64,000 bases of DNA from Apostichopus japonicus (taxonomy: Eukaryota > Echinodermata > Holothuroidea > Aspidochirotida > Stichopodidae), in contig NC_092568.1 of assembly GCF_037975245.1 (NCBI RefSeq), forward strand, positions 17,503,001 to 17,567,000, read 5' to 3'. Positions 10,601 to 16,600 of the stretch are shown here, in pieces (within the stretch, counting starts at the first letter, position 1; the number at the start of each line of letters is the position of its first letter). A program made the translations under genes and the position numbers. The notes under the pieces are model-generated. The model had not been told where the DNA came from, ran no database searches, and saw nothing but the letters and a program-made list of their open reading frames with translations.

Positions 10601-13600
10601 TCAGGAAGCACATGTCTAACTTAACGAGCCTTGACTTACGACACAACAACTGGCAGAAGGTAAAACAATTTATAGTACTTTTAAATAATGACAAACATTT
10701 TAGACAATTATTAATAACATATATATGGACTTGCATTATATTTTCCCTCCCATGTTGTTGCCATTTCAGCTGTTGCTATGACAACTGTAATTTGTGGTCT
10801 TTTCTATTTCACCAATGAAATGTTTCAGAATTGCTAACTACTGATCAGATTTGGTTACCTTTTAATTTCATGGGTTATCTTTCCTGTTAAATATTTCAGC
10901 CCGAGGGCCTGAGATTGAGGACCATTGGCCGATTGAAGTCCTTGTCCCTCCTTGACAACAAACCAGTGACCGAGAGCGAGTCCACGGCAGCTCTCAGGAT
11001 GGCCGCAGGGTCCCGGATCTCTCAGGTATCTCTGCTAGCCCATAGCAGGACCGACCTGGTGCGACCCCGGAGTCTGAGTCTCCTGACCTGTGCCCAACTT
11101 CTGTCACAGATGAGTCGTAACAAACCGGACAGAATTAACGAGAATGACAGCGAATGGTACTTAAAGGTAAGTTAACAGTGCAGAGGGTAATAACTACCAT
11201 AACTAAATACTGCAGTGTTTAATATTATGCAGGGATGTGCCAAGGATTTCATGAGTGCAGGGTATACTGATCGCCGTCCTCGGGGAGGGGTGTAAGTATC
11301 CCCCTCCGCTTTGAGAAATTTTTTCGGTTTTTGAAGGTGCTCAGATGCCAAATGCTGGCACTTGTGTAGCTTTTTAAGCACATACACAAGTACTAGTTTG
11401 TTAACAATTTACATTTTTAAAATATTTTTTAGTGAAATATATTACGTACCTGGTAAAAGTCATTAGTTTGTTTTCAAAGAGATTTTACAAGGGACCGATT
11501 GAGAGCCGTAAGTAATGTTTCTCGCATGCGTAACTGATGCATTATTAGTCTGTATAATTTTGGCATAGGCTAGGCCCAATTTATGTTGAATATATTGTTA
11601 GGAACGTCGGGATTTTAGATGAAAATAGTGCGGGATTCACAATTTTTAAGACAGTGCTGGGCGGTAATTTTTAGTGCTGGGCGGGGCCGCCCTGTGCCGC
11701 CCAGCGAGGGCACATCCCTGATTATATATGCGTTGTTTAAGTCTCTGCCAGTGGGGTACTGCACTACTAATATTTGTGTGTTATACCGGATTGTAAGTTT
11801 GCTCCTCCCTAAACAAGCCATGTTCTATTCTGACGTAAAATGGGTAGCAATAAATCTTACTAAGAACTGGTCTCTGTCTTTACAGGAAGGAATCTGTGAC
11901 ATCTTTAATTTTTGTGTAAGATATAAATTTGTATGTATGTTTTTCATATGAATGTAGGAAAACTTTAACCTCCGAATAAAGAAGACATATGTATATTTAG
12001 GAACCAAACAAATATAATTTGAAGAAAGGCTGTATATCAGGGTCAAGTATTACCTATGCCATACTCTGGCAGATACATTTACCTTTAATAATTGCATCAT
12101 GGGTAATTCATGTAGATTGCTGGCATGTATATAACACCTGTTATCATGTAGGTTACTTTTACCTTATCTTTCATTTAAAGGTAACTGCTCTGAACTTAGA
12201 TGGTCAGCATATCAGTAAACTCTCAAACCTTGAGAGGTTAATCAACCTTAAATGGCTGTCACTGAGTGATAATGACCTGACCAAGATTGAAGGACTGGAG
12301 CAGTGTGTTCACCTGGAGGAACTATCACTGGATGATAATTGCATCTACAAGATAGAGGGTGAGTCAGTAACCAGTTTATATTGAGTTATGGAAGGCATAT
12401 GTAACAGAGAGATTTAGGTTAGATAGAAGGATTTAGGGCAGTGTGTTCACCTGGAGGAACTATCGCTGGATGATAACTGCATCTACAAGATAGAGGGTGA
12501 GTCAGTAACCAGTTTATATTGAGTTATGGAAGGCATATGTAACAGAGAGATTTAGGTTAGATAGAAGGATTTAGGGCAGTGTGTTCACCTGGAGGAACTA
12601 TCGCTGGATGATAACTGCATCTACAAGATAGAGGGTGAGTCAGTAACCAGTTTATATTGAGTTATGGAAGGCATATGTAACAGAGAGATTTAGGTTAGAT
12701 AGAAGGATTTAGGGCAGTGTGTTCACCTGGAGGAACTATCGCTGGATGATAACTGCATCTACAAGGTAGAGGGTGAGTCAGTAACCAGTTTATATTGAGT
12801 TATGGAAGGCATATGTAACAGAGAGATTTGGGTTAGATAGAAGGATTTAGGGCAGTGTGTTCACCTGGAGGAACTATCGCTGGATGATAACTGCATCTAC
12901 AAGATAGAGGGTGAGTCAGTAACCAGATTATATTGAGTTATGAGAGGCATATGTAACAGAGAGATTTAGGTTAGATAGAAGGATTTAGGGCAGTGTGTTC
13001 ACCTGGAGGAACTATCGCTGGATGATAACTGCATCTTCAAGATAGAGGGTGAGTCAGTAACCAGTTTATATTGAGTTATGAAAGGCATATGTAACAGAGA
13101 GATTTGGGTTAGATAGAAGGATTAAGGGCAGTGTGTTCACCTGGAGGAACTATCGCTGGATGATAACTGCATCTACAAGATAGAGAGTGAGTCAGTAACC
13201 AGATTATATTGAGTTTTGGAAGGCATATGTAACAGAGAGATTTGGGTTAGATAGAAGGATTTAGGGCAGTGTGTTCACCTGGAGGAACTATCGCTGGATG
13301 ATAACTGCATCTACAAGATAGAGGGTGAGTCAGTAACCAGTTTATATTGAGTTATGGAAGGCATATGTAACAGAGAGATTTGGGTTAGATAGAAGGATTT
13401 AGGGCAGTGTGTTCACCTGGAGGAACTATCGCTGGATGATAACTGCATCTACAAGGTAGAGGGTGAGTCATTAACTAGTTTATATTGAGTTATGAAAGGC
13501 ATATGTAACAGAGAGATTTAGGTTAGATAGAAGGATTTAGGGCAGTGTGTTCACCTGGAGGAACTATCGCTGGATGATAACTGCATCTACAAGGTAGAGG

Positions 13601-16600
13601 GTGAGTCAGTAACCAGTTTATATTGAGTTATGGAAGGCATATGTAACAGAGAGATTTAGGTTAGATAGAAGGATTTAGGGCAGTGTGTTCACCTGGAGGA
13701 ACTATCGCTGGATGATAACTGCATCTACAAGATAGAGGGTGAGTCAGTAACCAGATTATATTGAGTTATGAGAGGTATATGTAACAGAGAGATTTAGGTT
13801 AGATAGAAGGATTTAGGGCAGTGTGTTCACCTGGAGGAACTATCGCTGGATGATAACTGCATCTTCAAGATAGAGGGTGAGTCAGTAACCAGTTTATATT
13901 GAGTTATGAAAGGCATATGTAACAGAGAGATTTGGATTAGATAGAAGGATTAAGGGCAGTGTGTTCACCTGGAGGAACTATCGCTGGATGATAACTGCAT
14001 CTACAAGATAGAGAGTGAGTCAGTAACCAGATTATATTGAGTTTTGGAAGGCATATGTAACAGAGAGATTTGGGTTAGATAGAAGGATTTAGGGCAGTGT
14101 GTTCACCTGGAGGAACTATCGCTGGATGATAACTGCATCTACAAGATAGAGGGTGAGTCAGTAACCAGTTTATATTGAGTTATGAACGGCTTATGTAACA
14201 GAGAGATTTGGGTTAGATAGAAGGATTTAGGACAGTGTGTTCACCTGGAGGAACTATCGCTAGATGAAAACTGCATCTACAAGATAGAGGGTGAGTCAGT
14301 AACCAGTTTATATTGAGTTATGAAAGGCATATGTAACAGAGATTTAGGTTAGATAGAAGGATTTAGGGCAGTGTGTTCACCTGGAGGAACTATCGCTGGA
14401 TGATAACTGCATCTACAAGATAGAGGGTGAGTCAGTAACCAGTTTATATTGAGTTATGAAAGGCATATGTAACAGAGATTTAGGTTAGATAGAAGGATTT
14501 AGGGCAGTGTGTTCACCTGGAGGAGCTATCACTAGATGATAACTGCATCTACAAGATAGAGGGTGAGTCAGTAACCGGTTTATATTGAGTTATGAAAGGC
14601 ATATGTAACAGAGAGATTTAGGTTAGAGAGAAGGATTTAGGGCAGTGTGTTCACCTGGAGGAACTATCACTAGATGATAACTGCATCTATAAGATAGAGG
14701 GTGAGTCAGTAACCAGTTTATATTGAGTTATGAAAGGCATATGTAACAGGTACTTGGGTTGGATAGAAGGATTTAGGGCAGTGTGTTCACCTGGAGGAAC
14801 TATCGCTGGATGATAACTGCATCTACAAGATAGAGGGTGAGTCAGTAACCAGTTTATATTGAGTTATGAAAGGCATATGTAACAGAGATTTAGGTTAGAT
14901 AGAAGGATTTAGGGCAGTGTGTTCACCTGGAGGAACTATCACTGGATGATAACTGCATCTACAAGATAGAGGGTGAGTCATTAACTAGTTTATATTGAGT
15001 TATGAAAGGCATATGTAACAGAAGAGTTCTCACTGAATGGTAACTGTTATTTTGTAACATATATATTGCAGTATTGAATTATTCAGACACCAGTGACACA
15101 CTGCATCAAAGTTAACCCATATTCCGTGTACAATAAACATTAATATCAAACTTTCTTATGTGAGGATGAATTCAAACATCCGGTCGCCATTCATTGCTAA
15201 AGTTTACATGTTCATATTCCACTTTTCTTCTTTCATCTAAGTTTGGCCTTATTTTCCCAATTAAGTTGCATTTCTTCTTTCCAATCTTTTGGCAGGTTTA
15301 TCTCATCTTTCTCGCCTCCATACTCTGAATCTTGGTTTCAATTACATCAATTCTCTGGATGGGTGTGGCCTGGATAAACTCTCCCAACTTCAATGTTTGT
15401 CTCTGGAATGTAACCGTCTCTCCTCTCTATCTGGTCTGGCCGGTGTACCGTCCCTGCTGGAGCTTTACATTGGTAACAATGTCATACAAAATATCAGAGA
15501 GGTCTTTCATTTGAAGGTAAATTTTATTTTTAATTTTTTTAATTCATTTTTAGGATTTTGCTCTATGTGATAGTGAACTTAAGAAAGTTTTCTTACACTA
15601 TATAAGCCAGAGAGAGTATCCATGTAGCATGGTTACCCACAAGTGTTCATTGTTTTTACACTTCAAGTCAGGTCAAAGTTATAGTAACCCAATATTTTGG
15701 TTGTAAGATTTGAACATCAGGCTGGAATTTCATAGATGTAGGATATCCTTCAAGCTTCAGGTAAAATTTGTTGTTCCTCTCTTCGATATATTTTTAATTA
15801 ATCGTGTTATTTCTCCTGATGTTCTCGTTGCTGTTATTTCATAATCCTGTATTAAATGTATTAATCTTTTTTTAAAAGCATTTACCAAATTTTGTGATCC
15901 TTGACCTCTGTGGGAATCCAGTCTCCTGGGAGTCAGAGAATTACCGTTTGTTCGTCGTGTATCACCTGAGAACCTTAAAGGCGCTGGATGGTATAGCAGT
16001 GGTAAGTATATCAACATCACTCGCTGTCATTTTGTGTGTCCATGAGACCTTTGATCATCTATTGGAGCTTATTTGAACCCATTCTATCATGTCGTCATTT
16101 CGTACTGCCTGACAGAATGCGACCCGACCGTCCTCTACGGTTGTAACAATCATCATCAGCCTTACTCGGACATTGTGCATCTGCTTACGGCAACAACTGA
16201 TGGAGATTTATTCTGCTCTTTAAGTCACGTTGGCATCAGTCGGCAAAACTCAACAGAAGCATTTTCCTGACTGACAGTCCGCAAGGGATGGTGCAGTGTG
16301 AGGAGGTTCTCAACTGCAACAGTTTAATAAAAATGTTATCAAACACGGAGAAATTATGTGCAATCATGGTCTATAATAAACAGTGTGATGTGCATGTGGC
16401 CTTAACGTGCAACCGTGGTCTATAGTAAACAGTGTGTACTCATCAGTTATACACCCTGCAGGATTCAGTCTGCTACCGTGGTTGACAACTACTGAACACT
16501 GGGTCATGACAGTCAAGTTGCATCCTGTCTTGTTGAGCAGTGTGGGCCAGTTTTATACTCAAAAATAAAACAAAACTGTTAGCAAACTGTTTATCCACTA

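Follow-up and report, generated by a model that had tools for sequence, protein, structure and literature searches.

A probable mirage-type minisatellite at an exon/intron boundary of LRRC9 in the sea cucumber Apostichopus japonicus

In a 64,000-nucleotide stretch of the Apostichopus japonicus genome (contig NC_092568.1; the whole stretch is called the window, and positions are counted from its first base), one intron of a leucine-rich repeat (LRR) gene, probably the LRRC9 orthologue, begins with tandem copies of the end of the preceding exon, each of them followed by a GTGAGT splice donor. What does such an array represent? The copies might be exons in the making, as the initial annotation proposed when it suggested that LRR expansion might be seen here at a raw stage. 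They might also be decoys that lower the output of the gene, or a product of misassembly. We consider it very probable that the array is instead a minisatellite of the type known in amphioxus as a mirage, which lies across an exon/intron boundary and would be removed together with the intron.

Anatomy of the array and its host gene

The features needed for this argument are as follows, all on the forward strand.

12300 to 15022: putative donor-type mirage of 20 tandem copies (the native copy plus 19), delimited by Tandem Repeats Finder (TRF), unit alignment and a genome search
1667 to 22656: probable LRRC9 orthologue, with 23 exons in the window, recognized from its in-frame chain, Pfam matches and motifs
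12181 to 12358: LRR exon of LRRC9 whose last 58 nt are the native copy; acceptor tttaaag|G, donor GAGG|GTGAGT, frame open into the exon at 15296
12359 to 12364: native GTGAGT donor, presumed to be the one used; score 9.73, third highest of 22
12359 to 15295: host intron of 2937 bp, presumed to be spliced from 12358 to 15296, with phase-consistent flanking exons
12382 to 12384: in-frame TGA, found by translation, which would be read if the native donor were passed over for any later one in the array
12715 to 14094: block of copies that recurs six units further on, with distances of 1, 1, 1 and 0
15296 to 15516: next LRR exon, whose first two bases finish a split Gly codon

The array call made by TRF (period 138, 19.8 copies, 96% matches) runs from 12300 to 15022, limits that replace those of 12299 and 15012 given initially. 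Each unit consists of an exon end of 58 nt, the GTGAGT donor and approximately 80 nt more. The exon part that matches closely is 58 nt long and ends exon 12181-12358 (positions 12301-12358), after which GTGAGT follows. The first copy is the genuine exon end and is contiguous with the full exon, and 19 copies come after it. When the array is split by its core, 20 exact cores are recovered with 19 spacings, 15 of which are 138 nt and four 136 nt, such that the 138-bp unit described earlier holds for most of the array and not for those four spacings. The final copy is shortened to 108 nt.

The donor is intact in every copy (20 of 20, or 19 of 19 within the array), which bears out the earlier statement on intactness and raises its count of about 19 to 20 once the native donor is included. 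The sequence GGGTGAGT is present in 17 of the 19 array copies, and the remaining two carry A at exon position -1. A search of the genome with the unit (671,581,487 bases in 35 contigs, in which match counts are lower bounds) listed at least 20 matches. Because all of the matches listed fall inside the array at 12300-15022, the array is not due to chance. The observation that an LRR exon end has been amplified together with its donor is confirmed by TRF and by unit alignment.

The 23 exons of the host gene join into a single in-frame conceptual chain of 1124 residues, with one donor being GC. Matches to the Pfam families LRR_4, LRR_9 and LRR_8 were found on this conceptual protein, and these support its C-terminal LRRs. 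LRRC9 proteins are reported to carry LRR blocks on either side of an ART domain marked by the motifs PR[IL], [DE]xxxFRHG and D-(5)-PEY-(2)-EFEY (PMC7955679). The sea cucumber protein has the same layout of LRR blocks flanking an ART-like domain, wherein PRI is exact and DPCPFRQG and one 15-residue segment are near matches to the other two motifs. Beyond the upstream edge of the window there are further open segments that carry LRR motifs, the LRR call being made there by motif. Given the in-frame chain, the Pfam LRRs, the ART motifs and these upstream segments, we name the gene as the probable LRRC9 orthologue, an identity drawn from published motif descriptions and Pfam. One base of the split codon comes from exon 12181-12358 and two come from exon 15296, and the flanking exons run on in frame without the array.

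As a separate observation on this gene, a diverged copy of LRRC9 exon 20 (74% over 88 nt) lies at 18864-18951 within intron 18594-19141. It is open in one of three frames, and could be either a relic or an alternative exon.

Splice signals in the copies and the rival explanations

Splice sites were scored with donor and acceptor matrices derived from the other 21 introns of LRRC9, with leave-one-out scoring of the real acceptors (n = 22). Donors of the repeat are strong by this measure (9.73 in 18 of the 20 copies, 6.77 in the other two, compared with 3.14 to 12.08 for real donors). Retention of GTGAGT in all 19 array copies agrees with the mirage type, in which many copies keep their splice signals. 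Intact donors are otherwise unremarkable, because 41 of 133 six-column windows of the unit are equally invariant.

The acceptor side is different. The site TTTAG|GG, originally placed upstream of each unit, is found in 16 of 19 copies, and the other three read TTAAG|GG (two) or TTTAG|GA (one). These sites score -8.41 in 14 of 19 copies, with a range of -10.8 to -5.45, whereas the real LRRC9 acceptors range from -0.1 to 12.78 and all lie above every one of them. Among 783 other intronic AG dinucleotides the median is -3.12, and a score of -8.41 falls between the 10th and 25th percentiles. By the matrix of this gene, the proposed site would not be a usable acceptor in any of the 19 copies.

These scores bear directly on the proposal that 60-nt units are spliced in as cassette exons between TTTAG|GG and GTGAGT, each adding a 20-residue LRR segment to LRRC9. 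The proposal has attractive features. A 60-nt cassette is phase-neutral, as was claimed for it, and the frame is open in 19 of 19 copies, 11 of which encode exactly one and the same 20-residue sequence followed by G. A model protein with one additional cassette also gives a better LRR_4 match (61.8 bits versus 56.0 without it), and recruitment of mirage exon parts as exons has been proposed in the report on globin mirages (PMC3087553). However, the acceptor each cassette would need scores lower than all 22 real ones, and the 20 added residues, although correctly counted, do not fit the LRR period, being two short of the 22 read from two 22-residue segments of the conceptual protein. Nor do the copies show significant coding constraint (four synonymous and four nonsynonymous changes in the exon-derived part, p = 0.097). 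A raw stage of LRR expansion is formally possible, and neither the acceptors nor the constraint test lends it support. We disfavour the cassette reading and regard it as very improbable.

A second AG in the unit, GAAAG|GC, suggests another use of the copies. Paired with the array donors, it would yield stop-bearing pseudo-exons of 100-102 nt, or the native exon would be extended to the TGA at 12382, such that LRRC9 output would be lowered according to copy number. At its best score of 3.89 this site surpasses six of the 22 real acceptors, the donors, as noted above, are strong (9.73 in 18 of the 20 copies), and early stops are present in the products of both routes: in 18 of 18 pseudo-exons (14 of 102 nt and four of 100 nt; the 19th site lacks the AG) and in the extended exon. 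Yet 5 to 10% of ordinary intronic AGs score equally well, 3.89 falling between their 90th and 95th percentiles, and amphioxus mirages are reported to leave splicing undisturbed (PMC3087553, PMC3902484). A poison-exon or decoy-donor array is therefore improbable in our estimation, if somewhat less so than cassette exons.

The suspicion that misassembly has inflated the copy number arises from four consecutive copies that have near-exact counterparts six units away. Set against this, private variants and 2-nt deletions distinguish the copies from one another. PacBio HiFi reads usually span 2.7 kb. The assembly is presumed to have been built from reads of this kind (PMC10344927), and an assembly artefact is the least probable of the explanations we considered.

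Origin and divergence of the copies

The mirage reading accounts for the anatomy as follows. The tandem unit spans the exon/intron boundary (58-nt exon end, donor and approximately 80 nt more), the outermost copy is authentic, and according to the gene model the rest are intronic. We propose that a tandem duplication once brought intron sequence up against exon sequence at a position 58 or perhaps 75 nt from the exon's end, and left an altered joint. The repeat would have grown afterwards, probably by unequal exchange or slippage, with one part repeated as a block, and its copy number may be unstable. The exon-proximal copy would remain the real exon end, bearing the donor that is used. The remaining 19 donors would be silent, because the native donor gives an exon of 178 nt compared with at least 316 nt from later donors, and because the array is without a good acceptor. 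The entire array would then be spliced out from 12358 to 15296.

Among the 19 array copies, substitutions affect 27 of 138 columns. Copies at 12715, 12853, 12991 and 13129 match those at 13543, 13681, 13819 and 13957, which are the pairs at six-unit lag. A mirage would be expected to evolve in concert inside the cluster, with its edges less homogenized, and on this the copies give a mixed picture: the one that has diverged most (eight differences) occupies the third place from the distal end, but other distal copies equal the consensus. Nothing in this pattern requires selection on the copies, with the synonymous lean described below duly noted.

The joint can be examined at the distal end, where the sequence leaves the unit at approximately 15022. 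Because it does so, the final approximately 30 nt of the unit, which hold TTTAG, are absent from the unique intron. We had entertained the possibility that these 30 nt are filler, and the only outside source found for them is an 11-base match at 22426. That idea was dropped, since the last approximately 17 nt of the unit resemble exon positions 12284-12300, to which they align imperfectly, with mismatches and gaps, both by blastn and by direct alignment. Two accounts are possible: a duplicated exon part of approximately 75 nt that underwent changes at the joint, or microhomology with the exon. On the first, the TTTAG site may be an altered piece of exon. On either account TTTAG|GG was not copied from the native acceptor of the exon, which reads ttcatttaaag|G at 12180.

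Several points weigh against the mirage reading as we have set it out. Exon-derived columns vary somewhat less than the others (8 of 58 versus 19 of 80, p = 0.19), half of the exon-derived changes are synonymous compared with the 24% expected, and the native exon and the array consensus differ at two positions, both synonymous. Low variation in exon columns together with this synonymous lean points weakly to coding use. In addition, GAAAG|GC reaches 3.89 in nine copies, within the range of real acceptors, and the matrix behind the acceptor scores is small, coming from 21 introns of a single gene. The origin of the joint has two competing accounts as well, a longer duplicated exon part or microhomology.

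Further boundary arrays and known mirages

The arrays around LRRC9 were surveyed across 264 kb, comprising the window and 200 kb of flanking sequence in total, with thresholds of period at least 20, at least three copies and at least 200 bp. Three loci from this census are listed here.

109 to 1675, forward strand: putative acceptor-type mirage in LRRC9, with 17 array copies at intervals of 87-91 bp, followed by the true 3' splice site 1666|1667 and approximately 12 nt of exon (TRF, unit alignment)
Window -97332 to -96240 (G000:C8:17405668-17406760), reverse strand: candidate third mirage, with a 73-bp unit in approximately 15 copies (TRF) and a CAG|GTAAGC donor
Window -16126 to -15255 (G000:C8:17486874-17487745): 282-bp repeat of 3.1 copies inside an open reading frame, which may be a coding minisatellite

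In the array at 109-1675, two subtypes mostly alternate, and every copy carries GTGTGTAG, which resembles a 3' splice site. Its 18th copy is the true acceptor of exon 1667. When the exon edge up to 1678 was compared by blastn with the 17 array places, 16 matched at 89-93% and one at 77%. Use of any of the 17 upstream acceptor copies would change the frame or introduce stops. LRRC9, as modelled here, bears both a donor-type and an acceptor-type boundary array.

Five further arrays lie in the flanks, making seven in the 264 kb with the two of LRRC9. One of them, approximately 110 kb from the donor-type array, is built from units that copy the final approximately 69 nt of an open segment (289 nt in all) together with CAG|GTAA, and 13 such donors are intact. 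A preceding segment joins the 289-nt segment in phase. No Pfam or PDB relative of this putative exon was found, with weak matches below the cut-offs only, and because of this the array is given candidate status and its coding call rests on the open frame and splice phase. For the other three flank arrays, besides this candidate and the 282-bp repeat, no evidence of exon overlap was found, one of them having been compared in part with Pfam.

Three of the seven larger arrays therefore lie on exon boundaries, one as a candidate and two in a window chosen for this very finding, and a fourth lies within an open reading frame. This raises the broader idea that exon/intron boundaries are preferred seeding points for minisatellites in this echinoderm genome and that mirages belong to a wider deuterostome process. 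A randomly placed 138-bp unit would span a junction in LRRC9 with a chance of 0.27 and a 90-bp unit with a chance of 0.168, for a product of approximately 0.045, and the case that both LRRC9 arrays span junctions beyond chance is not compelling. Three genome scans for donor arrays listed at least 169, 453 and 601 matches, compared with at least 181, 458 and 204 in the reversed controls. Only in the last of these scans do the counts favour donors, and single large arrays dominate. Because a match is not an array, one array alone yields dozens of matches, and the counts are lower bounds, the scans decide nothing on enrichment. We offer preferred seeding at boundaries only tentatively, and think it unlikely to hold as stated.

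Elsewhere in the genome (G000:C20:18443595-18477417), two neighbouring blocks are separated by approximately 31 kb, and in each a 989-residue open frame has three PF00217 (phosphagen kinase) matches. An arginine kinase exon from this genome agrees at 64 of 64 residues with PDB 3ju5, an A. japonicus structure; a second segment of that arginine kinase locus placed 3ju5 second among its matches, and an exon of a different kinase gene placed it ninth.

Mirages have been described in the amphioxus genes Adh3, BflGb6 and BflGb9 (globins), troponin C and PGBD5 (PMC3087553, PMC3902484), with troponin C and PGBD5 added by the PGBD5 report (PMC3902484). Among the open-licence literature searched, mirages by that name were met only in amphioxus. 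As reported for the globins, mirages occur at 5' as well as 3' boundaries, the two BflGb6 haplotypes have six and three repeats, Adh3 data and globin reverse transcription-polymerase chain reaction (RT-PCR) results are said to suggest regular splicing, and in the model presented the exon part of a mirage can turn into a new exon (PMC3087553). The LRRC9 arrays resemble these cases in having an exon edge and splice signal in the unit, in affecting both boundary types and in keeping the signals in many copies. Unit sizes are of the same order (150-160 bp in BflGb6, 157 bp in BflGb9, 10-72 bp in Adh3, and 60 and 108 bp in PGBD5). In contrast, the host here is an echinoderm rather than a cephalochordate, the donor-type array has 20 copies compared with six and three in the BflGb6 haplotypes, and the length or somatic instability and the normal splicing that mark the mirage type would be predictions for it.

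Two other systems are related. Minisatellites also lie at exon-intron boundaries in human segmental duplications and are reported to give rise to novel introns; those units average 30 bp in four copies and their introns have transcript support, unlike the present genomic data (PMC2812944). The AGGT model of Rogers likewise invokes tandem duplication across an intron-exon boundary that carries splice signals, as described for that model, but in LRRC9 no new intron or exon is evident, and the array sits within an existing intron. What is new here is a host group outside the cephalochordates, the copy number and the presence of two opposite types in one gene, and the phenomenon is possibly recurrent.

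A donor-type and an acceptor-type case in one sea cucumber gene would show that the mirage process is wider than the amphioxus examples. The donor-type array is also a natural test of how the spliceosome chooses one donor among twenty that are near-identical, and of whether repeated exon ends are ever turned into exons. If boundaries do prove to be preferred seeding points, then mirages would be no amphioxus oddity but a process that keeps supplying exon ends and splice signals in amplified form.

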